In this document: piece after piece, positions 2,933 through 64,000 of the stretch
Position numbering within the stretch: position 1 is the stretch's first letter
Layout: the number at the start of each line of letters is the position of its first letter
Notes under the pieces: generated by a model
Told to the model about the DNA's origin: nothing
Seen by the model: only the letters and a program-made list of their open reading frames with translations
Database searches by the model: none
From: Turritopsis dohrnii
Lineage: Eukaryota > Cnidaria > Hydrozoa > Anthoathecata > Oceaniidae
Reading direction: 5' to 3'
DNA: 64,000 bases
Assembly (NCBI GenBank): GCA_027922465.2
Contig: BQMF02000004.1
Span: 2,254,702-2,318,701 of the forward strand
Program-made: the position numbers and the translations under genes

Positions 2933-5900
2933 ATGAAAGCAGGTTTACAAAGGAAATGTATAGAAACATTGCCTTTCCTTCTGAAAGAGAAAAAACATTC
3001 AGACAACATTATCATTAGAATAACTACATAACCATAGAACATATTTGAACTCTGTTATTAGACTTTATAACGCCGTAAGTTCGCAAGAGTATATTTCTGT
3101 TTGATAGAATTGTTATGATGAATTTGTTTCCAAATACCTTTGTGCATCCCTTCATTGAGATGACTTGCATTTTGAGAAGGTTAAATTCAAAATAATCTAC
3201 ATAAATTTTGTTCAATCATAAACTGCATGAAATTCAACCGGCTTTCTTGTAACATTTTAGTAAACCAACACATTTCAGATCCTTTCAACTCTTTTTATGT
3301 TACTATAAGTATCAAGCAATTATTCTGCAAATGATAATTTTCATGAAGCTAGCACTAATAGCAGTATAGTTTTTTTTTACCTTTTGTGAAGTTTTCCTAA
3401 CTACATGAGGAAGAATCAATTTTCACCGATCCATGAATTACATTGAGGTTTCTTGTACTTCGAGTCCCCTGCCAATTACATAAAACAAATATATAGCACG
3501 GTTTTAACATCAGTTTTTCTGCAAATTTATTTCCACCATTTTGTGGTTGAGCATAATACTTGAAGTCGTTCATGCGTTAAGTTCCACTGCGGTTATTAGC
3601 AGTTGCAATGCAATCGATTCATTCAATGTTTAAACAGTAAACAAATGTTTGTAAAATGTAAATATTTCAATGAATAAAATTGAAAGGAATCAGGAAGGAC
3701 TGAATGATGGATTAAAATGTCCACATGATGAAAAACACACTTAGCAGGATTGGTTTTCTTCTAGCCCAACTGAAAAAGAACACGGGGCTTTCATATATAA
3801 TGGGTTTTAAATTCGATTGTTGTTACTTTTGCGATGTGGTTTTCAATTTCCACTTAAATACATTCTTCAAATATCCACTTTGCTTTTCAATTTCCCATTA
3901 CAACGATCCACCATATTTAGTTTTAGAAATGAATTTGTTTTCCGGATAATAGATCTTTCTCGAATTTCTATTTAAACGATGCATTGTGGGTGAGTTGTCG
4001 TGTCTAACCTCGCTTTTAACATTTAAACTGCTTCTAACTATCGGAATGGGAATTGGAAATAATAGTGACTATTATTAAGTTATAAAGTAATGAAATCAGT
4101 GGAACAATGAATCGCATGAAAACGAGGTTAGATATGAAACTCAGTCACAGTTTAGAGTTTAGAGTTTAAACAGAAATTCGGGAAGGGTCTACTATTCAAA
4201 ACAGAACTGTATCAATTTTTTTACAAATGTTGTTATTTTGACCACGTTCACAGGTATCAGTAAAAGTGGTTTGAACATTGGATTAGTATCTGATAAAAAA
4301 ATCATTCTGCAAAAAAAAAAAAAAAAAATCCGGAATGAACAAGGAATGAAAACAAGGTTGGTTTAGACAAAGTATGCACCCTTTCCGAATTCCCGTTTAA
4401 AAATCGCATTCGCGTTTAGTTGTCCATCATACGAAAACCCAATTTCCATTTCGACGATCACTTGAAGTTGTTCCTCCTCGATTTTTGCGACATCAGTGTA
4501 GGGGTTTATGCAGCTGATACTACACTCCATTGTGGAATGTTTTTTCCGAAGACAGGCTTTCGATAATTCGCTCAAAAATTTCAGACGCGCGGAAGGTACT
4601 AGTTATGTATGGGTTATTTTTAGAAAATCAATCTCGGAGAAGACTGTATCATTATATGAAACAGGCTTCCCTCATCTATGTATTATCAACTTGCAGGGGC
4701 ATTTGCCCTTTTACAACCAATTTTTGAAGTTTTCCAAATATATTTGATAGAGGGTTGTAGGTAAAAACACTCCATAGTTGGTATACACGTTTCAGAAACA
4801 AGCAAATGATCCTGTCTGTTATCCTGTCTGTTTTCTTTGATCATCACCAGTCAATGATACAAAACAGTCTAATTCGGTTTGAACCATCAGGTTTGAAACA
4901 TTCATTCGAACAATCCCTCTTTTCATAAAATGATAAAAATCCATTTATGGTACTTTTAGAATCAAAGATTTTTTAATTGCTTGGCAACGCTGGTGTTCTT
5001 AGACGCAAAGAATTCAAGTGCAAGTTTATGTCCATATTAATTATTTCTTTGCCAACTCTCTTTTTTTATTATCAACAACGGGATTATGAAAATACATGTT
5101 GATCATATTGGAATGTGAAGGAAATCGCAATAACGAAAGTATTGTCAATTTATAATTGTGAAACACAATCGTTCCAAGCATGTGATAATGTTTCAAAGCC
5201 TCCTCCTCCATTTTTGAAATTCTACAATGTTGTTCACTTGAAATGGTGATCATGGTTTTCAAGTATTTCGCGACAACGCATCATCATCATCAAGCTTAAA
5301 TGACGGTCGTAAATAAATTTGATGCCAAACATTTTTATGAGGCCTCAAGCATGAACTATGCGATCTTGTAAGAGCATGATTGTCAGATTTGATAAATATG
5401 TGAGAAAAAATAGCTACGAACAATGCCAATGGTAATTACGAACAACTCAAGCCTGAATCTACTTGTCAAAAAAACACAATTTGAGATATGACTTCTTTTC
5501 ACTGTCAAATGAATTAACGAAATTGTCTTCTCCTAAGAACCATATAGCCATCAGTAGAAGCTGGACATCAAATTTTCGTAATCTGATTGTGAGTAATTGC
5601 AAGTGGCGATGGGGTGCCGAAACATTTGGGTTTCAATGCTTTGGGGGACAGGTTTACGACCTCCTTCAATCTTTGATAGACGATATCTTCGTAATGGTTG
5701 GTCGTGGCAAAACGATCCCATACATTTTTTAATCAGTTGTTCGAGTACTACACTTTTCGGTGGCCATTTCTTGATTCTATTTATCGTCACCTGTTTTTGA
5801 CACGAGATTTATGCACATCGTTTTCGAGGTAAGAGACGCTAAAAAAATTTACCACTTAACCGATATCCATACGTATATCGGTTAAACTGTCATCTCATGC

Positions 5901-43329: not shown

Positions 43330-44752
43330 TCAAAGGATAATTGACGGGAACAGATTTGCTTCAAATAAGAAATGATTATCAAATTCTACAAAAGTTCCTT
43401 GGAATTCCGGTGGTCGTCTTAATAGCGTAAGCGCCTTTGCCTTGCCAATGCCATAAAATGCACTCGTGTAGTCGTTTCCAGTAAAGTAATGTAAAGAGGG
43501 CAGATGCCCGACAAAAATCTTTTCCAAGTTCTATTGCAATATGTGAAATGTCCAGGATGCGCTTGTGATTTCCCACACCGATTTCGCAAATATTCTGATA
43601 TATATGTTATCCTCAAAATATGTGCGTAGATGGGGACATCTGAATCAACAGCAACGATACAAACTGACGATAAACCAGCAACAGCAGCATGTTGTGCACA
43701 CAAAAATACGTTTGTGTCAGCTTCCTCCTGAGCATTTTCGAGATCTTCTGATTCTGTTAACAACACCATCATTTACTGTTAGTTTAAAAAAAGTTTTTCC
43801 CACGCTTACAAATAAGTTGCTGAGTGGATAAAAATGATTAACAAAGCGAGTTTGATCTGACCATGGAGGTATAAAACAGAAGGAGAACGAACTCAAAATC
43901 TGCTATTGTACTATCCGTGATGCGCTGCATTGTTTAAGTCCTCAGTGTGTAATAACATATAATTCCTATCATCTTGCATAATTTTTATAATTTTGGCGTT
44001 CTTGCCTGGAAATTTCGTTCATATCAATTCTCCAATGTGATTAAAGTTCGTTAGGGTAAAGTTCTTAGCATGCATAATCTGTAGGAATTGGGAGAATTAT
44101 GCAAAAACGTCACAAATATGCAACGAAAACATTGCAACTTTAGGTCTATATATCTCGTGATCCCCTCAAGCAGTTTCGCCGAGCTTCAGTTTTTGAAGAG
44201 AGAATAATCCTAAGTTTTTGCACGTACCGCGGCACTATCGAGGCGCATTTAAGTCAGAAGATATGTAGATTGGAACTTATACATGAATTACGCGATATCT
44301 TGAACTCTGTATAAAAACATAGATTTTCATTTGTTTCTTAAGGAAGCTTTAGGTTTAATAATCTGCTTGTCACTATGCAGCAAGTTGATCCGTTGTTATA
44401 ATGGATGATATTTGGTTTTTAAATTGTCGTTAATTTTTAAAAAAGTATTCGTTTCACCGACAACCAGCCGAAAGCGCATCACGGGTGACATCAAAGTGAT
44501 ACCGCAATGAATAGAATAGTCATTATCTGAATAATAGAAAAATAAGAGTTCGTTCTCCTTCTGTTTTATACCTCCATGATCTGACCAATCTTGCAATAAG
44601 AATTCTACCAATTCAGTTTTGTTGGCATCATTCCACATGACCAACTGGTCACGTCCTTTAATCCGCACCCTCAAACTCACAAAAGCCGCCCTTCTTGCAC
44701 TTTCATAGGATTTTATAAAACCATTGCCATAACAATCTGACAACTGCAGCAT
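43330..44752 (-). pseudogene. Broken copy of a multi-copy gene with EEADT / FTGxDxTSAF motifs
   Basis: Three minus-strand pieces in different frames line up N to C. 44752-44540 holds an NKTELVEFLLQDW segment. 43772-43580 holds EEADTNVFLCAQHA then a VDSDVPIYAHI segment. 43570-43330 holds LDISHIAIELGKDFC, then after a frameshift LPSLHYFTGNDYTSAFYG. I recall this order (EEADT, then D(T/S)DV, then FTGxDxTSAF) from repeated uncharacterised invertebrate proteins, possibly nuclease-like. A ~46-bp piece of the coding sequence (TGGAGGTATAAAACAGAAGG) recurs inverted at 43862, which shows rearrangement. Function unknown and not expressed intact. Confidence 0.45.
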
Positions 44753-50451: not shown

Positions 50452-50937
50452 TCAGTTTCGCAGTATTTTTTTCGTATAAAAATAAGGAAATTGGCGATAG
50501 ACACCTTTCTTTTTAAATTTTAGAGTTACAGTGGGAAACTTTGTCTTTCTTTTCAAAAGTTCCTTTTCTAATACTTCTGAATAACGCTTATTTTTCGACG
50601 TGAAAACTAGTTTTGCTGGAACGACAAGTCCGACTTCTCGTTGACGTTTGCCAGTTATTACAGCTTTGATCTTGTTATCTGGGTCTTGCTGGATGAAGTG
50701 GAAGCACAAACTTGAGATTTCTATGGGGATGTGTCCCACGAGAAGATCTTCTTTATACAAACCAACGGCATATTTATCATATTCTCTTGCTTCCTCTCGC
50801 TTATCCGCAGCAGCTTCAAGCATTTCACCAATCGTAGCACCCCATACTTCTTTGTAGACATGATGGCCACGAATTATGCTGGTCACTTCCGTCTTGTAAC
50901 AAACTAAAAATGGCATTGCTGGAGTAATTCTAGACAT
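50452..50937 (-). CDS. HIRAN-domain protein of the pogo-type element
   Basis: 161 residues from ATG at 50937. Residues ~20-115 match the HIRAN pattern: RGHHVYKEVW, a region of charged residues, EYDKYAVGLY, then LVGHIPIEISSLCFHFIQ and a GKRQREVGLVVPAKLVF strand. HIRAN domains (HLTF/Rad5 family and stand-alone forms) bind DNA ends at damaged or stalled forks. The Lys/Arg-rich C-terminus (KELLKRKTKFPTVTLKFKKK) fits DNA binding. It starts 196 bp from, and divergent to, the transposase and lies inside the same ACGCCCCC borders. It is therefore probably an accessory protein of the element; a host gene captured by the transposon is the alternative. Confidence 0.75.
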   Translation of the reverse strand: MSRITPAMPFLVCYKTEVTSIIRGHHVYKEVWGATIGEMLEAAADKREEAREYDKYAVGLYKEDLLVGHIPIEISSLCFHFIQQDPDNKIKAVITGKRQREVGLVVPAKLVFTSKNKRYSEVLEKELLKRKTKFPTVTLKFKKKGVYRQFPYFYTKKILRN

Positions 50938-51132: not shown

Positions 51133-52539
51133 ATGGCGGAATCTGCAAGCCAAATAGCCTCTTCAAAAGGAAAAAAGAGACGCTCATACAGCATGGAATT
51201 TAAGAAGCAAGTTGTTATTTATGCCGAAGCAAATAGCAATAGATCTGCCGCATCTCATTTCGATGTTGAACCAAAGCGAGTGAGAGAATGGAAAAAAGAC
51301 ATTGATAAAATCAAAGCTACAAAGTCGAAGAGGCAGCGTCTTGATGGAGGAGGAAGAAAGTGTATTGACGCAGACTTGGAAGAGGACTTAGTGCACTGGG
51401 TATATGAAAAAAGAAGCAAAATGCTGCATGTTAGCAGAAAAATGATTATGTGGAAAGCCGAGAGCATTTTTGATGAGAAAAATGAAGACCCTGCCGTCAA
51501 AGATACGTTTATTGCGAGTCGGGGATGGTGCGAAAAATTTATGCGAAGACACGGGTTCTCTCTTCGAAGGAAGACTACAACTGCTCAAAAGGATCCAGCG
51601 TATATGGTTGATCGTATCGTAGCATACATAATGCACGTCCGTCGTCTCCAAAAGCAGTTCAATTTTCATGACACTGATATCATTGCCATGGACGAAACAC
51701 CTGTTTGGAATGATATGGTGTCTAACACTACTGTAGAGAAAACTGGCTCACGAAAAGTTAACATGAAATCAACTGGCCATGATAAAGTACGTGTTTCTGT
51801 TTGTTTAGCTGGGAAAGCAGACGGGACCAGATTGAATCCTTTTATTGTATTTAAAGGAGCGAAAAGAGAAAGTAAATCTCTTCACGAGGAGTTTCGTGGA
51901 AAATGTTCAGTTGCCAGCTCTGCTAACGGGTGGATGAATGAAGAGTTGACGTTGCAGTGGTGTAGTGAAATTTTGGGTCAGTTTTCTTTTCGCAAACGTT
52001 TACTAGCTTGGGACTCTTATGAAGCCCATCTCACGGATGATGTCAAGAAATGTTTGATTAAATCAAAAATTGAAAGTGCAATCGTACCGAGAGGTTGCAC
52101 AAAATACATTCAAGCCCCAGATGTCGTATGGAATAAGCCTTTTAAAGGAAAGATCCAAGAGTATTATGACGATTGGCTCGCAAATGGAAAACATGAATAT
52201 ACAAATGCTGGTAACATGAAACCGGTACCAAGGAGGTTCGTCGTTGATTGGGTTATTAAATCTTGGCAGGCCATACCTGCAGAAACGGTGGCAAAGTCAA
52301 TGAAAGCATGTGGTTTATCATTAGCAGTTGATGGTACTGAAGATGATTTGATTTCGTGCTTTAAGGAAGGGGAAAAATGCGAAGGTGGGAGAGCTTTACT
52401 TCAAGCACAGATGGAAAATCTAAATGACGGGAGTTTACATGAAAATCCTTTTGATATTGTGGATGAGGATTTAATCGCTGCTGCTCCAGCATTCAATATC
52501 ATCGAGGAAGATGATGCTGACGATGATATTGACATTTAA
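51133..52539 (+). CDS. Pogo-superfamily DDD transposase
   Basis: An intact 468-residue frame. Residues ~15-60 form a Psq-like helix-turn-helix (RRSYSMEFKKQVVIYAEANS ... SHFDVEPKRVREW). Residues ~75-150 look like a CENP-B-type second DNA-binding domain (ISRGWCEKFMRRH-like, here ASRGWCEKFMRRHGFSLRRK). The catalytic core has D187 (AMDETPVW), D294 (AWDSYEAH) and D330 (QAPDVVWNKPFK), spacing 36 between the last two. The C-terminus is very acidic (EEDDADDDIDI). It would excise and reinsert the element between cognate ends. No stops or frameshifts, so possibly active or recently active. Confidence 0.85.
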   Translation: MAESASQIASSKGKKRRSYSMEFKKQVVIYAEANSNRSAASHFDVEPKRVREWKKDIDKIKATKSKRQRLDGGGRKCIDADLEEDLVHWVYEKRSKMLHVSRKMIMWKAESIFDEKNEDPAVKDTFIASRGWCEKFMRRHGFSLRRKTTTAQKDPAYMVDRIVAYIMHVRRLQKQFNFHDTDIIAMDETPVWNDMVSNTTVEKTGSRKVNMKSTGHDKVRVSVCLAGKADGTRLNPFIVFKGAKRESKSLHEEFRGKCSVASSANGWMNEELTLQWCSEILGQFSFRKRLLAWDSYEAHLTDDVKKCLIKSKIESAIVPRGCTKYIQAPDVVWNKPFKGKIQEYYDDWLANGKHEYTNAGNMKPVPRRFVVDWVIKSWQAIPAETVAKSMKACGLSLAVDGTEDDLISCFKEGEKCEGGRALLQAQMENLNDGSLHENPFDIVDEDLIAAAPAFNIIEEDDADDDIDI

Positions 52540-53875: not shown

Positions 53876-54472
53876 CTAGTAAGAATTTTCGGTTATTGAC
53901 TTTTTCAAGTTTTGAAGTTCTACCATCAAACTTTTTTGAAATTGATTTTGGGCTTCGGTATCCATCTTTCTATCTATAGAGCTGAGTTTTTGTAAAGCGC
54001 TGTAATATGTTCCCTGCAAAACCTGGAACTCGGAGAGATTGATCCTCCCATTAGTCAGCGCCTGACTTATGTTAGTTTCGAACACAGCGATTGAGGATGT
54101 AACAATATCATATAATTTTATCACTTTTTCTACTTTCTTTTGATATCTTTTGACGAAAGCTGTGGTAAGACCGGTACAAATAGAGCCGGCTAAGGCTACA
54201 CCACCTAATCCTGCAGAAATAGGTATTCCGATAATAGTAGCCCCTGTTGCAATTGAACCGATGCCAGAGCCAATGGTTATAGCGCTTGAGCTAGCATTTA
54301 GTAGCATCGATCGTTCTATCGCCTTGTTGTATCTCTTGAGCTTGATGCTAAATTTATCCTTTAGTTTTCTCAACTCTTCGAATTCGGAGTTTATTATACT
54401 CGCGTTGAACTTTTCCTGCTCATTCAAATCCTCAGGAGCAGTGGGTAGTTTTGGGTATATTGAATCAGTCAT
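53876..54472 (-). CDS. Polinton membrane-associated protein, unknown
   Basis: 198 residues from ATG at 54472. An N-terminal helical, charged region (~15-55) is followed by a long Gly/Ala/Ile-rich hydrophobic segment (~57-110, with GSGIGSIATGATIIGIPISAG) that could form a membrane hairpin. The C-terminal half is amphipathic helical. No family name known. It diverges from the gene at 54541 across a 68-bp AT-rich spacer, and its ATG follows TCTCTCTAAAT. A virion or membrane-interaction role is inference from the context. Confidence 0.6.
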   Translation of the reverse strand: MTDSIYPKLPTAPEDLNEQEKFNASIINSEFEELRKLKDKFSIKLKRYNKAIERSMLLNASSSAITIGSGIGSIATGATIIGIPISAGLGGVALAGSICTGLTTAFVKRYQKKVEKVIKLYDIVTSSIAVFETNISQALTNGRINLSEFQVLQGTYYSALQKLSSIDRKMDTEAQNQFQKSLMVELQNLKKSITENSY

Positions 54473-54540
54473 ATTTAGAGAGAGAGATTATGTTATAATA
54501 ATAAATAATAATAAATTATCCTCTAAATAAATAAATAAAA
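54473..54540. promoter_or_regulatory. Divergent AT-rich spacer in the Polinton
   Basis: 68 bp with (AATA)n runs between two start codons. It must contain both promoters. Confidence 0.45.
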
Positions 54541-55819
54541 TGGCAGACATTGACATAGATCATTTTGGAGAACATGGTATGACGACAGATGAAACAACCG
54601 ATGAGAGTTTCCTCTCATACCAACTTCGGGTGGTGAACAAATAGATACACGCGGAGCGACGGGTGAAACCTTATTTGGTGGTGGAGATCAGAAAATTGAA
54701 CTTTTGAAAAATTTTGTTGGTGATATATACAAAAGATTATCTGAAAGGCTCCAGCAATACCCTGAGGTGTTATATACCGATCAGTTTGAAATTAGAGATG
54801 GTGAATTATACTACAAAGACAGTAGCAAACCATTGACGAGCGAAGGAATACTAAGGGGTAGCGATACTATAGCTGAAATATTGGGTAAGAAAAGATTACG
54901 TAAATTAGGGTTTGATATACCTATTGGCAAAATAACAGCACGACAAGCAGTTATGTTAAACAAAATACAAGAAGAACTCCCTTCATCATCTAAAATCACA
55001 AAATCGAGTGATGTAGAGCTTGAGGAAATTACGGGGAACATTGCAAATAGTACGGAAGATCTAATTTCATTAATAAGACAACAATCTGTCGATCATGAAA
55101 CGACTCAGACTGGTGATCTATTTGAATATCCTGTGCGAGAGTTGTTAGGATTGGATAAGGCGCTGAGAAACATACGAGGAGGTCTTCAGGAAGAGGTTGC
55201 AAAAAAGGTTCGAATAGAACAGCGTATCGATCGAGAGAAAAACAAGTTGGAAGAGATGGAAAATGATGCGACATACACGGACGAACAACGAAAAGAGGTC
55301 GAAGATCGAATGGAGGGGTTACGTGAAGAGTTGAAAGCTAGGGAGGAGAACATTAATATTCTCAAAGGCAAACTAAACGATCAAGTTACGAGCATCAAAG
55401 AAACCATTGCTAAAGTCCTCGACAAAGATACCACATTAGGTGAAAGGATACGAACACTATTCCGCGAACAAGGTATAACAATCGTTAGCATTCTGACAGC
55501 GTTTGGTATGGCTATCGGTGTTCTTGTGGAAGCTTTGTTACCATCTGGAGGTGGAAGCTCAGTAAGTCAACCACAAAATCATGGTGATAAAAAGGACGGT
55601 GCAAAGGAATGGATAAAAAATAAACTCAAAGCGTTAGCATCACTTCTAGGTAGATTAGCATCTAAAGCGGCAGAGGCTTTACCAGGAATAATTGGGTCTA
55701 TCGTATCATGGATATTGAGCAGAGCTAAGGAAGTTGTAGGTTGGTTAAGTCAAAATTTATGGGCTCTGATTGTAGGGGTTGTAGGGTTGATCTATACATA
55801 CCTTGTCACTAGACGGTAA
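54541..55819 (+). pseudogene. Polinton coiled-coil protein with C-terminal membrane helices, N-terminal frameshift
   Basis: The ATG at 54541 (MADIDIDHFGEHG...) opens a frame that stops at 54643. The main frame, open from about 54611 on to 55819, continues the sense after a one-base slip near 54611. Without the slip translation would start at an internal codon, so I treat the gene as frameshifted. The body (residues ~40-200) is polar, followed by a coiled coil (~190-255, RIDREKNKLEEMEND). A hydrophobic segment (VSILTAFGMAIGVLVEALL), a Gly/Ser linker, amphipathic helices (KNKLKALASLLGRLASKAAE) and a final transmembrane helix (LWALIVGVVGLIYTYLV) end the protein. Probably a virion membrane or penetration-type protein; family unnamed. 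Confidence 0.55.
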
Positions 55820-55876
55820 CCATCTGAAAGTGTATATGTTACATGTATCGTGTAACATAATTTTTGTTGATGGTCT

Positions 55877-56299
55877 TCATCTTTCAAAATACCACACAGC
55901 ACCACCAATACCGAGCATACTCAGAGCTATAAAAGCCAATTCTCTTTCATGTTGATCATGACTCGGTGTATAAAAGTCGCTCAATACAGGCTCTCGTGGT
56001 AGCGGTTCAAGATGATTACTAAACACCCTATTGTACTCTCTCATCGCATCATTTAGCTCTACGAATTTTGTCTCAGCCTTCTTTTCGAGCATGAGCTGCT
56101 TATTGATAAAATCGATTCTTTCCTGTCGTTTTTGCTGCCATTCAATCTGTGCTTTTTGTAATTTTTCTATGGCCAAATCATGACGTTTTCTTTCCCTATC
56201 GATTCTGTCTTTGGATAAACTTGAAAACAGATAGCTTGATCCTGTGAAAGCCAAAGCGTTAGCCAAAGCTCCACCTAACATCATTGCGATAGAAGCCAT
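55877..56299 (-). CDS. Polinton small protein with two hydrophobic ends
   Basis: 140 residues. An N-terminal hydrophobic stretch (1-28), a central charged helical region rich in Arg/Lys/Gln/Glu (~30-90, likely coiled coil), a Pro-rich linker, and a C-terminal transmembrane helix (LAFIALSMLGIGGAVWYF). Two bases separate it from the next upstream gene (56302), so the two are probably co-transcribed. Confidence 0.6.
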   Translation of the reverse strand: MASIAMMLGGALANALAFTGSSYLFSSLSKDRIDRERKRHDLAIEKLQKAQIEWQQKRQERIDFINKQLMLEKKAETKFVELNDAMREYNRVFSNHLEPLPREPVLSDFYTPSHDQHERELAFIALSMLGIGGAVWYFER

Positions 56300-56301
56300 A
56301 T

Positions 56302-56529
56302 TTAGATATTGATATTTTCAGGCAAAATCTTTTGTTTGATTAAGTAGTCCTTTGTCACTTCACTAGCGGCGATAATGGCAACTAGTTTTCCCGTATCTTC
56401 CAAGTCGAACTTTTGAATAGAGGGTGGTGTCATTTTTAACACCTTTTTTCCTAGCATAGAGTAGCCGATAGCGAAAACGCAGACGACTGATGCATGATAT
56501 AAATCGTTGATGATACTTTTCTTGTCCAT
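56302..56529 (-). CDS. Polinton small membrane protein
   Basis: 75 residues with one clear hydrophobic helix near the N-terminus (HASVVCVFAIGYSMLG) and a second weaker one (KLVAIIAASEV). Tightly packed between neighbours on the same strand. Function unknown. Confidence 0.55.
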   Translation of the reverse strand: MDKKSIINDLYHASVVCVFAIGYSMLGKKVLKMTPPSIQKFDLEDTGKLVAIIAASEVTKDYLIKQKILPENINI

Positions 56530-56556
56530 GTTTGTTATATATACATTTTTTTCTTT

Positions 56557-56901
56557 TTATTCCATTTCATGTTTATTGATTTTCACTGGTATTTTAGATT
56601 TTTGTGGAAGGGGGGTGGATGGTGACCCACGGGGTAATATTTGCTCTTTCTTTTTATACACAAAATAAGCAAATCCACCAACTAAACCGAGAGCTATTAT
56701 TCCACCTACACCATAGCTGTAGTTCATTGGTTGTTCATTTGGTTTGGTGAGAGAGGCCTCAGGCTTCTCCATTTCTTTTTGAGGTGACACTTGTTTTAAT
56801 TGTTCTCGTTTTTTACGGTTGTATTCCGCCAACTTCTTACCCGCTTCAACCTTTTTTGGGTTCTTCGTTGTCACTTGAATGGGAGTCTGTTCTTCTGACA
56901 T
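56557..56901 (-). CDS. Polinton basic protein with one transmembrane helix
   Basis: 114 residues. The N-terminal half is very basic (NPKKVEAGKKLAEYNRKKRE), suggesting nucleic-acid or scaffold contact. A transmembrane helix (GVGGIIALGLVGGFAYFVY) is followed by a basic Pro-rich tail. Its first 56 bases overlap the 3' end of the upstream gene in another frame. Confidence 0.6.
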   Translation of the reverse strand: MSEEQTPIQVTTKNPKKVEAGKKLAEYNRKKREQLKQVSPQKEMEKPEASLTKPNEQPMNYSYGVGGIIALGLVGGFAYFVYKKKEQILPRGSPSTPLPQKSKIPVKINKHEME

Positions 56902-57394
56902 TTTTATTATCTGCTGTATTTATATTATCATTGGATTTATTTAAATTCCTTTCATTGATATAATGCCTCCCGGTAATAAGTCCAACACTGAGTGGTGCTA
57001 ATAATGAGCCGAATTTATAATATAAGTCACATGTAAATCTTTGAACGGCAGAGTTTAAGAAGGGGTCAGTTTCCAGGTCATTGCTCAACGCATCTTGATT
57101 GTTTATTCCTAACGTTGCACAAGCCCCCATCGAATAAATGCGTATCAGTGATTTCCCCAAGGATTTTACCATTTGACCTGATAGTTTAGCCTCGTAAATA
57201 CTAAAAAGTTTTTCTACCTCTTCATCTTTGAGTTTGTTAATTTGCTCTTCGGTGTACATTTTCCCTAAGTATAGCTTGCTATTACCTGTTAAGACACACT
57301 CGAGTAATTTTTGTCTTTTACCATCTGAAGGTGGAAATTCACCTGGAACATCATAACTCTGGTTGATTAAATTATCGATCGCTGTTTCCGCCAT
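56846..57394 (-). CDS. Polinton protein, unknown, overlapping the next gene
   Basis: I start at the ATG at 57394 (MAETAIDNL), 182 residues. The extra upstream codons to 57490 encode a hydrophobic stretch but lack the ...TAATAAAAATG context seen at the chosen ATG and at neighbouring genes. The protein has an amphipathic N-half (FPPSDGKRQKLLECVL), a mid-region hydrophobic segment (KFGSLLAPLSVGLITGRHY) and an Asn/Asp/Ser-rich tail. No family known. Confidence 0.55.
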   Translation of the reverse strand: MAETAIDNLINQSYDVPGEFPPSDGKRQKLLECVLTGNSKLYLGKMYTEEQINKLKDEEVEKLFSIYEAKLSGQMVKSLGKSLIRIYSMGACATLGINNQDALSNDLETDPFLNSAVQRFTCDLYYKFGSLLAPLSVGLITGRHYINERNLNKSNDNINTADNKNVRRTDSHSSDNEEPKKG

Positions 57395-57521
57395 TTTTAT
57401 TAGAGAGAGGTATTTTTTTAACACAAAATAAAAGTAAAATAGTGAGATCAGCAGTATGCTTAATAACACGAAGTTGACATATTCTATCATTTTGTTGTGT
57501 TTGTTATAATTTTCTTATACT

Positions 57522-57617
57522 CTCTTATAATTTTGTTGAAATTTGCTGTATAAGAGTTTGCTATCCTCTTATAATTTTGTTGAAATTTGCTGTATAAGAG
57601 TTTGCTATCCTCTTATA
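57522..57617. repeat. 44-bp direct repeat upstream of the PPP1R15-like gene
   Basis: CTCTTATAATTTTGTTGAAA starts at 57522 and 57566, and CTCTTATAATT again at 57610, so the period is exactly 44. Units also contain CTGTATAAGAG, making TCTTATA/TATAAGA inverted pairs within each unit. Confidence 0.9.
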
Positions 57618-57647
57618 ATTATTTAAGACAAAATAATTATAAGAGGA
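57608..57647. promoter_or_regulatory. Perfect 17-bp-stem hairpin
   Basis: Left arm TCCTCTTATAATTATTT (57608-57624), loop AAGACA, right arm AAATAATTATAAGAGGA (57631-57647), fully complementary. It uses the same TCTTATAATT core as the 44-bp repeats. It lies in the divergent spacer, 76 bp before the PPP1R15-like ATG. It could be an operator, an RNA structure or a replication feature. Confidence 0.9.
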
Positions 57648-57723: not shown

Positions 57724-57969
57724 ATGTTCGATGATGAATCCTCAGATGATGATATTATATTTTCCCATCAAGATACAAAAAGGGTTACTTTTAATGATAA
57801 AGTAATGGTCCATTATATCTCTGCTTGTGAATCTCGTAGAAGTAACTGGATAGAGGCTGCTGTTGACAGAGTACGCTTTGAATCGAGGATTAAACATATT
57901 GGTAAAATTCTAGATCCTGTATTGAGACGTAAATTATTCTCTTACAGTAGTCTTATAGGAGTCTTATAA
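57724..57969 (+). CDS. PPP1R15/GADD34-like PP1-docking protein of the Polinton
   Basis: 81 residues. The start is acidic (1-10). Residues 19-32 (KRVTFNDKVMVHYI) contain the PP1-docking RVxF motif followed by the V-x-V-H strand seen in the PPP1R15 (GADD34/CReP) PP1-binding region. Residues 42-56 hold W-x5-D-R-x-R-F-x2-R-I with the same internal spacing as the W...DRxRFxxRI block of PPP1R15, the part linked to eIF2-alpha recognition. An LDPVL segment follows, as in that family. PPP1R15 proteins bring PP1 to phosphorylated eIF2-alpha and restart translation; some large DNA viruses carry short versions. This one would then counter host translation shut-off. It stands alone on the plus strand between minus-strand genes, with its own repeat/hairpin region upstream. 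The frame is intact. Confidence 0.85.
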   Translation: MFDDESSDDDIIFSHQDTKRVTFNDKVMVHYISACESRRSNWIEAAVDRVRFESRIKHIGKILDPVLRRKLFSYSSLIGVL

Positions 57970-58020
57970 CAGTCTTATAGTTTTTGTTACAAGAGTCATG
58001 TAACAAATATGTCAACTTGT

Positions 58021-58626
58021 TTAACAAATCACGTGCGTTCTTGGGTGTTCCATTCTCATGACTAGGCATGTGTGTTTCCCCGCATTTAACTTTTCATTGA
58101 CCTCTTTCAAATTTTCTTTCAATTCAATGATATAATTCTCTTTATGAATAGTGGTTAGATCGTTTCTATCTTTTGGATACCACACATATAACATTTTAGC
58201 TTGCCGTCGTAAATTTTTAGGTATAGCCGTGTATGATTGTGTAAGTAACCATAGCGAATGGTTTCGATGGCGACCACTAATTGCCAACTCGAGCAAAGGC
58301 TGTCTCTTTTTGTCCAATTCCTCATCAGCGATTATGTCGTCAATGAGGAATAAGGTTTTATATCCAGCACAATTAGTGGTCATTTCCTTAATCCATTCAT
58401 ACAAGCGACCTTGCGGTTCAATTAAAATCACATAGTTGTCAGTCCAAAACCACTTCCGATCTCTGTATGTTTGATTCCACCTCAAAGTTGGACATATAAT
58501 CACGATGTAATCAAAGTGATTGAGATATTCATTTTCTAATAATTTTACAACACGATCCGTTTTGCCGCACGATGTTGGTCCAACGAATAATGCTGTGTGA
58601 GGTTCTTTCATGTAAAGTGTATCCAT
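58021..58626 (-). CDS. A32-type genome-packaging ATPase
   Basis: 201 residues, intact. Walker A is GPTSCGKT at residues 16-23. Walker B is LFLIDDII at about 93-99. A conserved ISGRHRNHSLWLLTQSY block follows, with the polar residues after strand 4 typical of FtsK/HerA-type packaging ATPases of Polintons and nucleocytoplasmic viruses. It pumps or threads element DNA into the capsid. It directly follows the capsid gene (58631) on the same strand with a four-base gap, as expected for a morphogenesis block. Confidence 0.9.
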   Translation of the reverse strand: MDTLYMKEPHTALFVGPTSCGKTDRVVKLLENEYLNHFDYIVIICPTLRWNQTYRDRKWFWTDNYVILIEPQGRLYEWIKEMTTNCAGYKTLFLIDDIIADEELDKKRQPLLELAISGRHRNHSLWLLTQSYTAIPKNLRRQAKMLYVWYPKDRNDLTTIHKENYIIELKENLKEVNEKLNAGKHTCLVMRMEHPRTHVIC

Positions 58627-58630
58627 TTTA

Positions 58631-59947
58631 CTAATATAATGCAGACATAAATTGACCGTTTTGTATGTTTAGTTGAGCGTCCATTATTAGATATATATAT
58701 GCGTTTAAGTTTCCTGCAGTTTCAGCGGTCTTTTCAATCTGTAAAGTGATGCCTTCACTCGCATTTTCAATCTTTCGACCAGTCCCATGCAAAGCATTCT
58801 CATCAATTGTTCTGAAATCTAACCATAGAGCATACTTGTTTGTCAAGTAATCAGAGACTTTTACATCATGTAATCCCAAGCGCTTTCGGTTTTCGCCGAC
58901 GCTATTATCTTTTGGTTTTCCTTCAGCAAAATACTTGCAAATCTCATTGTATTGTTCAAACGGCTGCATCCCTTGAGCAAAAAGTTGGTTAGGCTTGCCC
59001 TCAACGATGACAGATACCTTTTTGATCTTTGGATTGTAGAATTTACCGGTATCTCGTTTGTAGGATTCTTCTTCTTCAAACAGAACTAAGATACCCTTCA
59101 AAGATTTGGCAGGTGTGTTGAATGACCAATTCCATGTTGTGTCTGACTTGTTTACTCTGATTTGTCGGTGTCTCAAAACTCTATCGTAGAGCAAAGCCAT
59201 GTTTTCGTATTCAGAAGCGATTTGTCTAGCCAACTTGGGTTGTGTCACAAGCTCATATTCAAGAGAGATGTTAGATATTTTGTATTTACCGTCTGGGGTT
59301 TTTCTTTGACCTGTGGTAGGAGTTGGAGGGTTAGAATAGATAACTCGGTTATAGTCGTTAAATGTGATCTCGTAGCATAACCTATTCCCTAAACCTGCTT
59401 GATAATATGGAATAGTACTATCTAGCATCTCAAAGTCGAGTGGAATGACAAATTTGTTTTTATAGGTGTCAGCAATGGCTTTGTCTTCTGCATCAGAGGT
59501 GTCTTTATCTGAAGCACCAATCCTCAATTTCATACAATTTTCTGTACACCCATCATCGATGATGATACCCTGTCTTATCGCGTTTCTCTTTTCAAACTTG
59601 GTTAACCATAAATCTCTGTAACACCCAAAAAGATCAAAGTCATCAATGCTCAATATCTCGCTACCTTCGAACTTGACAGCCAACTTTTTAACGATAGCTC
59701 TTCCAATGTTACTGACCAATGTTCTTTTCGTGTCAGCTGTCGACTCGAGTTCAATATCAAAACTTAGATTAGCTGTGCCAGGGATAATAACATCATCACT
59801 TCCTAAATTTGGAAATCTAACCAACAATAGCTGATTTTGGTCAATCTCACTCGGATTGTGTGTGACAATTACTTTTTGACGAGAGCCTTTTACACCGCGG
59901 GCAGTTCTAAGTGAACGTTCTGGATTTAATCTTTTTCCATACTCCAT
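58631..59947 (-). CDS. Major capsid protein (double jelly-roll type)
   Basis: 438 residues, intact. Length, place next to the packaging ATPase and penton-like gene, and an extended beta-rich composition fit the double jelly-roll MCP of Polintons. An N-terminal block around LLVRFPNLGSDDVIIPGT leads into strands containing STADTKRTLVSNIGRAIVKK, a region I associate with the repeated cnidarian capsid-like proteins. No transmembrane helix. The call rests on context and pattern, not on a structure. Confidence 0.75.
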   Translation of the reverse strand: MEYGKRLNPERSLRTARGVKGSRQKVIVTHNPSEIDQNQLLLVRFPNLGSDDVIIPGTANLSFDIELESTADTKRTLVSNIGRAIVKKLAVKFEGSEILSIDDFDLFGCYRDLWLTKFEKRNAIRQGIIIDDGCTENCMKLRIGASDKDTSDAEDKAIADTYKNKFVIPLDFEMLDSTIPYYQAGLGNRLCYEITFNDYNRVIYSNPPTPTTGQRKTPDGKYKISNISLEYELVTQPKLARQIASEYENMALLYDRVLRHRQIRVNKSDTTWNWSFNTPAKSLKGILVLFEEEESYKRDTGKFYNPKIKKVSVIVEGKPNQLFAQGMQPFEQYNEICKYFAEGKPKDNSVGENRKRLGLHDVKVSDYLTNKYALWLDFRTIDENALHGTGRKIENASEGITLQIEKTAETAGNLNAYIYLIMDAQLNIQNGQFMSALY

Positions 59948-59990: not shown

Positions 59991-60551
59991 TTAGCGGATG
60001 TGCAAAACAACGGCTCTTCCCAGGTCTTCTTTTAGCATATTGCCATGCTGATCTGTGAGTTTCAACGTGAGAGACTGAAATACACCATTTTTTAATTTTT
60101 TGTACTGAGGGTTTTTAGGCTCAACATGTGTAAAGTCACTATGTTCAGCCATGTGATAGGTTAGTAAAATATCACTTAGCTTTCCATTCTCAAGATTTTG
60201 AGTGTTGTCAAGTTCAGAGAGATGCAAATTAATTTTGGTTACGTTAGCGAGCTTATTTGTTTTGATTACTTGAGGGTTTTTGCCTAATGAGGTAAGTTCT
60301 ACATCACCTGCTAAAAAGGTACCTGCTAAAAAGGCATTCAATTCCCTGCTCGTGAATGTTCCTTGAGGTACCAACTTTTTAGCTTTCCTATAACCAAGCA
60401 TAGTCAGTGTTAGGTCTGTGGTTATTTCATACGTAACATTGTCTGCAAACATATCAACCAATGCAATTTCTTTTGAGCCATCCAAGTTTTGAATGGGGTA
60501 AGGTAGATTTATGGTCTTCTCACCCCTTACGAGATTTGCTGTGATATACAT
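59991..60551 (-). CDS. Penton-like minor capsid protein
   Basis: 186 residues, beta-rich, directly upstream of the MCP on the same strand. A C-terminal FQSLTLKLTDQHGNML block followed by a basic strand (GRAVVLHIR) resembles the end strands of single jelly-roll vertex proteins in Polintons. A small in-frame duplication is visible (FLAGTFLAGD, from a repeated ACCTGCTAAAAAGG on the plus strand at about 60310-60335). A shared promoter region of 39 bp separates it from the plus-strand gene at 60591. Confidence 0.6.
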   Translation of the reverse strand: MYITANLVRGEKTINLPYPIQNLDGSKEIALVDMFADNVTYEITTDLTLTMLGYRKAKKLVPQGTFTSRELNAFLAGTFLAGDVELTSLGKNPQVIKTNKLANVTKINLHLSELDNTQNLENGKLSDILLTYHMAEHSDFTHVEPKNPQYKKLKNGVFQSLTLKLTDQHGNMLKEDLGRAVVLHIR

Positions 60552-60590: not shown

Positions 60591-61750
60591 ATGGAGGATA
60601 TTTTTAAATATGTTCCCAATGCGCTTTATAAGCCAAATGGAGGACAATACCTTCAGATATTGAATGCTAAAGATTTATACAAACAAACAATTATTGTCTC
60701 TGGGAGCGGTTCTTTCCCCGCAACTTTTCCAAATATATTTACTAATTACGAAATGGAAGAAAATGATCAACGTATGAAAATTTGGCAGGAACAACCGTTT
60801 AAATTATGGCAAACCCAACTCAATTTTGCCACTTGGTGTGCTTCAAGCGCTTGTGGAGTCAGTTCTGAACATCTGAAAGAAAGTCGCTCTACTCCTATGA
60901 TTAGAGCAGTATATCGTTTTCACGTCTATTATCATATTAGACGAATCATTAAGCGTCTGCAGACACCTCTACCTTTTGAAAACGGTTTCAACCAATATGA
61001 TAATCCTTATAACAAAGAAGAGTTTTTAAAAATCTGTAGTGAATATGGTGTCGATTCTGATCCTAAAAAATACAAAGGGCAATATTTTTACAGCTCGTAT
61101 CAAAAAAGACGTAGAGACTATCCAAGGCAGGTGTGAGTTATTTCACAGACGACCCCATGACACGATGGATTATAGAAAAATCTAAAGGCTTTACAAAAAC
61201 AGGTCTTGTAAAAATTTCAGAGAGTGTTAGAGCATATGCTTATCTTATTCTTAGTTCCCAAGCCTCTGCTCGTTCTTCTATTTTAGGTAATAATTCAAGC
61301 TCTTTGACAGCTCAAAGAGTTTTTATGAACAACTTTGAAGACATTGTTAACCGCAGAGTTGATATTCAAGATGACATTAAACGTTATCAAGATACTTTAA
61401 ATTACGCTTCAAGCAAAGTTGATTATTCTGTTGGACAAGGTATTTACATGTTACCTAGTGACATGAATCTAAACATCAAGTCGGGAGTGTCTGGTTATAA
61501 TAATAAAATTCTCATATCTAATGATAACCTAAGCCTTGGAAGAAATAAAATGATTAATGTTATGCAAGAGCATCATATTTCACCCAAAGTGACTAGCTCT
61601 CCAACACAAAATAAAAGTTCACAAAAGAAAGTTCATAAAAGAGTAGTGAGTCAAACAGATTCACTCCCATCTCATGAAGAAGAGAAAATAGCTTTGGTTT
61701 TAGCGATTACCACGATGTTTAGTATATGGTATTATTATTATTATTATTGA
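60591..61750 (+). pseudogene. Polinton-linked structural-type protein, probably one gene split by a frameshift
   Basis: The first frame runs 60591-61136 (181 codons, ending ...RRRDYPRQV-stop). The second begins at 61133 in another frame with VSYFTDDPMTRWIIEKSKG. The overlap is four bases and the second has no ATG at its start, so a lost base or bases in a single ~385-residue gene explains it better than two genes. The N-part has a WCASSACGVS block and a VYRFHVYYHIRRI block. The middle has ILSSQASARSSILG and the C-part MLPSDMNLNI. The end is a hydrophobic ATTMFSIWYYYYYY segment that comes from a TAT repeat. I recall this domain order from repeated cnidarian proteins but know no function. Confidence 0.5.
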
Positions 61751-63387: not shown

Positions 63388-64000
63388 TCAGGAGGGTAAT
63401 TCTGTATCTTCAGGTATCAACATCAACTCTTCTTTTACAAAAGCTCGTTCAGGTCCATCTTGAAGGTAATACATTACACGGTTACCTGGTTGATCTATCA
63501 CCTCACTCAATCTATAAGTCTTCTTTGACCATATCCTATCTGTTGCTCTTTTTCGATGGTCATCGTGCTCTTCACCCGGTTGCAATAGATATCTATACAA
63601 ACCATCTTGAGGTAATTTTTCTTCGGGTGGATAGCTCTCTCGTTTAGCGAGAAGTACCTCTTTCATTTTAATAGCATCTTTCGGTTTCATATCGATCATC
63701 CGAGTCTTCGTATCGTTTAATCTATCCACAAGTTTATACAAATATTTGACCCACGTAGATGATACCTTTTCCGAATCGTTCAGTTCTTGAGCATCTTGTA
63801 TTTTGAATAAATTTTCGGCAAGTATCTTGTTCAACGCCTCGACAAACGCTGTATGGGTATGCTTATATTTAGTAGTTACTCTTTTAATTTCGACGTTATT
63901 CTTCTCCAACAGCTTTGTCACATCCGCTTTGAATTCTGAACCGTTATCACATTGAAATACTTTTGGATAGTTTAAGGGTCCAACTCTATAGATATTCTTA
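63388..64000 (-). CDS. Polinton integrase (C-terminal part), runs off the window
   Basis: A retroviral-type DDE integrase read on the minus strand. From the window edge: a VFQCDNGSEF block with the second catalytic Asp, then HTHTAFVEALNKIL with the catalytic Glu about 35 residues later. Near the C-terminus, KTYRLSEVIDQPGNRVMYYL and FVKEELMLIP form a chromodomain-like module, as in Polinton integrases. The first catalytic Asp and N-terminal zinc finger must lie beyond 64000. It inserts the element DNA into the host genome. Confidence 0.85.
   Translation of the reverse strand, partial: KNIYRVGPLNYPKVFQCDNGSEFKADVTKLLEKNNVEIKRVTTKYKHTHTAFVEALNKILAENLFKIQDAQELNDSEKVSSTWVKYLYKLVDRLNDTKTRMIDMKPKDAIKMKEVLLAKRESYPPEEKLPQDGLYRYLLQPGEEHDDHRKRATDRIWSKKTYRLSEVIDQPGNRVMYYLQDGPERAFVKEELMLIPEDTELPS

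Follow-up and report, generated by a model that had tools for sequence, protein, structure and literature searches.

The stretch of DNA analysed here (the window, 64,000 nucleotides) lies at the extreme end of its contig, which ends at position 2318701, in the 436-Mb assembly of Turritopsis dohrnii, and raises the question of whether a mobile element of an animal can carry a minimal version of PPP1R15 (GADD34), the subunit that directs protein phosphatase 1 (PP1) to eIF2alpha. The assembly contains 61 Wnt matches, which identify the host as an animal. Such a role had been proposed in the initial annotation for an 81-residue product (R15-like; Table 1), and all the residues on which the proposal rested are present in the order and spacing of PPP1R15: R20-V-T-F23, K26-V-M-V-H-Y-I32, W42 and D48-R-V-R-F52-E-S-R-I56. 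The gene is flanked by the convergent gene of a packaging ATPase and by a divergent gene of 214 codons, and an 11-bp tandem repeat, recognized by eye, overlaps its final seven or so codons. Under a codon-usage model built from the other element genes, its own frame scored +6.5 bits, versus -20 to -109 in the five other frames.

Table 1. Coordinates of the R15-like gene, its segments, and the surrounding genes and repeats in the window
Feature	Position	Strand	Remarks
Element gene	53876-54472	-	198 aa; DUF4461 28.3 against a cut-off of 24
Element gene, open frame	54605-55819	+	
Inverted repeat GTTACA-N7-TGTAAC, second copy	55838-55856	.	between another convergent pair of element genes
Element gene	55877-56299	-	
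Element gene	56302-56529	-	
Element gene	56557-56901	-	
Neighbouring element gene	56846..57490	-	214 aa; divergent from R15-like
44-bp tandem units upstream of R15-like	57523..57618	.	TCTTATAA at 57523, 57567, 57611
PPP1R15-like gene (R15-like)	57724..57969	+	ATG 57724, TAA 57969, 81 aa
Acidic N-tail of R15-like	residues 1-17		
PP1-docking segment of R15-like	residues 18-32		RVTF 20-23, V29-H30
eIF2alpha/actin helix segment of R15-like	residues 38-71		
Inverted repeat GTTACA-N7-TGTAAC	57986..58004	.	between R15-like and the ATPase gene (convergent)
A32-type packaging ATPase	58021..58626	-	201 aa; Pox_A32 PF04665 E 6.9e-8, over cut-off
Probable major capsid protein	58631..59947	-	438 aa; by the fold of a weak model only
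Putative minor capsid protein	59991..60551	-	186 aa
Element gene	60591-61136	+	
Element gene	61157-61750	+	
Retroviral-type integrase, 3' part	63391..63999	-	cut by the window/contig end

Comparison with the Pfam profile of the PPP1R15 core (PF10488, PP1c_bdg) gave a significant match (E 3.2e-7, 30.7 bits against a cut-off of 26.1), aligning residues 13-59 of R15-like with profile positions 164-210 and reaching past the RVxF motif. The solved chains agree, the best being human PPP1R15B (4v0x/4v0u; E 7.9e-6 and 1.1e-5), followed by the viral protein DP71L (E 1.6e-4) and, more weakly, PPP1R15A (0.21 and 0.61), with an unrelated protein at E 1.1. Counted by eye, 19 of 45 aligned residues are identical to PPP1R15B, and the distance from the Phe of RVxF to the Trp is 19 residues in both proteins. 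The human PPP1R15B core, used in turn as query, retrieved copies of the element (best 8.9e-5), and the PF10488 search was positive in none of 14 control genomes. Profile, motif order and spacing demonstrate, at the level of the predicted protein, that R15-like belongs to the PPP1R15 core family.

At the level of individual residues, the PhiPhi motif of PPP1R15A, given as Val564-His565 in the available passages of PMC10743859, aligns with V29-H30, and H30 was found in 69 of 69 distinct rows of the alignment of element copies. The PPP1R15A contacts Trp582, Asp588, Arg591, Phe592 and Arg595, listed in excerpts of PMC8500838, have their equivalents in W42, D48, R51 and F52 (69/69 rows) and in R55 (68/69), and R38, R39, W42, D48, R51, F52 and I56 of the helix half are invariant in these rows, whereas positions 26 and 28, adjoining the PP1 dock, vary strongly. 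Two eIF2alpha contacts of PPP1R15A, Arg587 and Arg594, are replaced by V47 (A47 in 4/69 rows) and S54, respectively; this loss was not treated as defining, because the Arg594 position also differs in human PPP1R15B, where it is Lys. In the C-terminal part, the Arg612 part and the RARA region were not recognisable. The eIF2alpha-binding motif of Rojas 2015, Rx[Gnl]x1-2Wxxx[Arlv]x[Dn][Rg]xRFxx[Rlvk][Ivc], as quoted in sections of PMC5346070, was strictly fitted by 44 of 78 copies and by 77 of 78 if Ser replaces Gly; the copy in the window has Ser at the G/N/L position. The same sections state that DP71L needs its LSAVL segment, both leucines of which matter, and the R15-like tail ILDPVL aligns with it. 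A structure model built from 8 sequences (mean pLDDT 67.5, pTM 0.31) showed an extended, unstructured N half and a helix at 41-80, confident only over about 51-70 (pLDDT about 91 in 51-60), and this predicted arrangement is consistent with how the PPP1R15 core is known to be built.

The Polinton context assumed in the initial annotation was borne out in part: the A32-type ATPase is firm, whereas the major capsid protein is recognised only by the fold of a weak model and the integrase fragment remains sub-threshold, so that a Polinton-like class is likely, not proven. The capsid model (mean pLDDT 48) gave Foldseek matches with E values down to 6e-12, 70 of them at E 0.001 or better; among the best 50 of these 70, TM scores reached at most 0.30 by query length and 0.36 by target length. 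Named matches were mostly viral capsids (NCLDV, ascovirus, virophage, mavirus), with one adintovirus penton capsid protein. By sequence, the capsid protein matched Capsid_N below cut-off (E 0.082); it had no relative among PDB sequences or PHROGs and its gene none in IMG/VR, although 3467 homologues were present in the protein collection. The gene that follows it, which to judge by its position may encode a minor capsid protein, had no family match. The integrase fragment matched rve (E 0.018, below cut-off) and a PHROG of the integration category (E 0.016), both weakly. Of the genes on the other side, the one at 53876-54472 has a product that also resembles an RTX N-terminal domain, weakly and below cut-off (E 0.00083), and the genes spanning 53876..56901 recur beside R15-like in related copies. 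No terminal inverted repeats of at least 40 bp were found between positions 44000 and 64000 of the window, and the right end of the element lies beyond it. To the left of the element are a Tc5/pogo-type transposase (51133-52539; DDE_1 E 6.6e-15) and, beside it, a 161-aa ORF (50452-50937) that matches HIRAN weakly (E 0.013). For the 603-aa ORF at 590-2401, Pfam gave nothing at E 1 or better.

Elements of this kind are abundant in the genome. The capsid gene yielded 1108 first-look candidates in the assembly, and 93 of the 96 scored were without internal stop, a very heavy burden for 436 Mb. With PF10488, 413 first-look candidates were obtained, of which 150 were scored, all of them over the cut-off and with no internal stop. 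The possibility that the gene might be absent from related copies is thus answered by its recurrence at 150/150 scored places and, between the ATPase gene and the 214-aa gene, at 25/25 distinct places whose gene order was checked, the 214-aa gene being only partial at some of these. We read 78 copies from distinct places of the genome, leaving out four duplicate loci; 64 of the 78 places were chosen by their PF10488 match, which favours intact copies. The W-x5-D-R-x-R-F motif is kept in all 78 and VTF in 76, and 68 pass a strict pattern that asks for the start, the two motifs and a PVLRRKL tail. Among the ten failures, L019 and L069 are merely substituted, and the other eight (L021-L025, L042, L086 and L087) have lost the start or suffered a frameshift, a deletion or an early stop. 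One locus, L020, shows at 4048-4287 and just upstream an acidic N-terminal unit, ESSDDDIIFS(Y/H)Q, repeated three times in tandem and in frame (open frame 110).

A second sample was anchored on the capsid gene: among its 96 scored places, 20 with no listed R15-like match nearby were taken by eye, in list order. Fourteen of these loci carried the gene (broken in L086 and L087), five did not, and L076 runs into the end of its contig; the resulting proportion of testable loci lacking a copy, 5/19, is no rate for the family, as the loci were picked for having no listed match. In L078, L085, L088 and L089 the ATPase and 214-aa genes are present and R15-like is absent, whereas at L083 neither neighbour was found within 2.5 kb, so that this element may be truncated or interrupted. 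R15-like is a regular gene of many, though not all, copies of one large Polinton-like family.

The interval that holds the gene is rich in repeats. The inverted repeat GTTACA-N7-TGTAAC occurs twice in the window, against 0.02 expected, and only between convergent gene pairs; it is probably a shared terminator hairpin, although its presence in copies without R15-like means that it may belong to the ATPase gene. In L078, L088 and L089, which lack R15-like and from which the interval could be extracted, the 44-bp array directly adjoins the downstream hairpin, and the interval measures 204-279 bp, versus 368-855 bp in carriers. We read this as gain and loss of an R15-like cassette within the interval, in either direction.

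Substitution rates were estimated on 20 loci (L013-L032) picked for their spread of scores, 9 to 19 of which were usable per gene. The neighbouring genes gave dN/dS values of 0.12 to 0.24 in seven of 11 cases and of 0.39 to 0.47 in the remaining four (ATPase 0.16 with 16/20 loci usable, capsid 0.14 with 9/20), and this purifying selection indicates that the elements of the family were functional while they replicated. R15-like itself gave 1.11 (16/20 loci usable), and its pN/pS over the 69 distinct rows was 0.81 overall and 0.87 in the core, so that no constraint is visible within the family. Few changes combined with decay after insertion may account for a dN/dS near 1; a relaxed function may be the other cause. 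A pN/pS of 1.2 in the C-tail was rejected as an argument for positive selection, because the last codons overlap the 11-bp tandem repeat.

The dS of R15-like, 0.036, is the lowest of the set (0.066 to 0.206 in the other genes), and over codons 18-71 its pS of 0.023 lies below that of 300/300 overlapping segments of the same size from 11 other genes at the same loci. In mean raw nucleotide difference (0.034 for R15-like, 0.064 for the ATPase gene and 0.045 for the 214-aa gene) the gap is smaller than in dS. Judged by synonymous sites, we read the R15-like copies as having a younger common ancestor than the neighbouring genes, the other reading being a special constraint on their synonymous sites; the gene looks like a recently spread cassette. 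Mantel comparison of distances gave r -0.03 between R15-like and the ATPase gene (n 34), 0.36 between R15-like and the 214-aa gene (n 26; a weak signal, as high in 5/499 permutations) and 0.03 between the ATPase and 214-aa genes (n 28), and loci without R15-like are scattered over the ATPase tree; from this discordance and scatter, recombination among the elements looks strong. The ATPase of the window is about 84-91% identical to most full-length copies, its type being shared by L075 (100%) and L076 (97%), whereas capsid pieces are mostly 92-99% identical, a contrast that is a sign of recombination between elements.

Outside the family, a single-sequence search with the R15-like protein found no relative in the protein collection, where those of the capsid protein abound, or in IMG/VR, and a profile that combined element sequences with human PPP1R15 recovered 40 proteins at E 10 or better. 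Of the 25 that were read, 18 resemble exons of vertebrate PPP1R15A/B and seven are short free-standing proteins from short contigs (P0152-P0155, P0157, P0158 and P0160), 35-46% identical to R15-like of the window. All seven have KKVTFS, RF-x-RRI and an ILDPVL-like tail, and four have W-x3-A-x-D; five match PF10488 below cut-off (best 21.0 bits), and P0158 and P0160 gave no match to it. Contigs corresponding to P0152, P0154 and P0160 were not found in IMG/VR. These proteins may stem from genes of related elements or viruses, possibly as a PPP1R15-like group not yet described, or else from exons of invertebrate PPP1R15. In a tree of short proteins and vertebrate PPP1R15, the element proteins stand apart from the vertebrate group (98/97), the sequences being too short to place them more finely. 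A motif scan of IMG/VR returned four loci, none PPP1R15-like: the motif frame was of 24 aa in L001, of 72 aa without PF10488 in L002, and of 567 aa in L003 and L004, with nothing of PPP1R15 by eye.

A PPP1R15 gene of the host was sought with the human PPP1R15B core (150 scored of 412 candidates, by frame length and score) and with a vertebrate PPP1R15B-like exon (150 scored of 404, likewise), and apart from element copies none appeared; one DNA pattern gave 0 matches, and the host may still have such a gene. As no host PPP1R15 could be distinguished from the element copies, the origin of R15-like remains inferred.

Taken together, R15-like is probably a stripped-down PP1 targeting subunit of the PPP1R15/GADD34 type, encoded by a Polinton-like element and serving the dephosphorylation of eIF2alpha through PP1 and G-actin. 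According to passages of PMC8500838 and PMC4394352, the conserved core of PPP1R15 alone suffices for eIF2alpha dephosphorylation in cells, is encoded by an exon of its own and has been acquired by viruses; a captured core exon could therefore function at once. It is on this sufficiency of the core that R15-like may be held to recruit PP1 and G-actin to phosphorylated eIF2alpha during activity of the element. The gene would derive from an animal PPP1R15 by capture, or have been handed on from virus to virus, and would then have spread among element backbones by recombination in the tandem-repeat region. Once the element is active and R15-like expressed, RVTF and V29-H30 would dock it on the host PP1 catalytic subunit, W42 and the helix at 41-71 would bind G-actin and the beta-barrel of eIF2alpha, and PP1 would remove the phosphate of Ser51. 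Translation would continue, to the benefit of the element, even after the host had triggered one of its eIF2alpha kinases (GCN2, PERK or another). Any eIF2alpha kinase would do as the opponent, which need not be PKR-like; the initial annotation had spoken of a stress or PKR-like defence. The sequence features suggest that the element may use R15-like in this way to resist the host's shut-off of translation.

A descendant of PPP1R15 could also have kept its hold on PP1 and exchanged eIF2alpha for something else, redirecting PP1 to a host or element protein or simply titrating it. The conserved dock half, the V/A47 and S54 that stand in place of Arg587 and Arg594, the pN/pS near 1 and the strong variation of positions 26 and 28 beside the dock would all suit such a protein, which we nevertheless consider unlikely: residues of the eIF2alpha/actin half are invariant in the 69 rows, with R55 varying once, and the similarity to PPP1R15B and DP71L reaches across that half. 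We consider it more improbable still that R15-like began as a PPP1R15 exon of the host, picked up by the element, and is now a passenger in decay that serves no current role. This reading draws on the dN/dS of 1.11, on the 5/19 testable loci without a copy and on the eight copies (L021-L025, L042, L086 and L087) altered in start, frame or tail, yet the 150/150 scored places are stop-free (in a short gene, and with a scoring that favours intact copies), the motif residues are invariant, similar short free-standing proteins exist elsewhere, and R15-like has its own leader together with a hairpin common to another convergent pair. That an open frame should resemble the RVxF-containing motif by chance, as its shortness and partial lack of predicted structure might allow, has a negligible probability and was rejected, given the PF10488 score above the curated cut-off, the independent match to solved chains, the 0/14 control genomes, and an order and spacing shared across 45 residues.

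The debate on a viral, cell-to-cell phase of Polintons has so far drawn on their capsid genes. A dedicated antagonist of the integrated stress response would be a different kind of evidence, being useful only when expressed in a cell that responds by arresting translation; R15-like is moreover a small, directly testable protein. It would suggest that the host animal defends itself against DNA elements by way of eIF2alpha, and it illustrates how recombination at repeats turns over genes in the elements. A wider scenario, whose chances we put at about even, is that a Polinton-like family gained a minimal PPP1R15 that then swept through diverged backbones as a cassette of the tandem-repeat region, that these elements still met shut-off by eIF2alpha kinases recently and so act in the cell as viruses, beyond being transposons, and that short free-standing PPP1R15-like proteins may do likewise elsewhere.

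With cellular PPP1R15B (CReP) and PPP1R15A (GADD34), R15-like shares the core, i.e. RVxF, the Trp, the D-x-x-R-F-x-x-R-I helix and the PF10488 match, and its PhiPhi V-H is that of PPP1R15A. It differs in having 81 residues versus more than 600, an acidic N-tail where the cellular proteins have their long N-terminal region, V47 and S54 instead of two substrate-contact arginines of PPP1R15A and no recognisable Arg612/RARA part, and in being encoded by a mobile element. The seven short proteins have similar motifs and a similar tail, at 35-46% identity and below the PF10488 cut-off. Among the papers listed (titles and openings of abstracts, with few subscription papers among them) no description of a PPP1R15/GADD34 homologue in a Polinton was found, and the relevant terms did not occur in PMC11071296. 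Virus proteins of the PPP1R15 type, of which the initial annotation had mentioned short ones, are indeed known and include DP71L, ICP34.5 and coGV-gp036. The last of these comes from what we take to be a baculovirus, not a Polinton, and is likened to R15-like by description, not sequence, as the product of an invertebrate DNA virus with the PPP1R15 core; a figure legend in PMC4394352 lists it as an insect granulovirus PPP1R15 (Q1A4R0). Mimics of PPP1R15 in herpes simplex virus and African swine fever virus are described in passages of PMC5346070 and PMC4394352. DP71L of African swine fever virus, whose short form has 70-72 aa, is equally small and combines a PP1 dock with an eIF2alpha segment, and ICP34.5 of herpes simplex virus has the same conserved region as R15-like. 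Unlike both, R15-like resides in an animal genome, on a transposon-like element that codes for a capsid, and its presence or absence varies between copies of one family; mimicry of PPP1R15 by viruses is already known, and the carrier here is a Polinton-like element.
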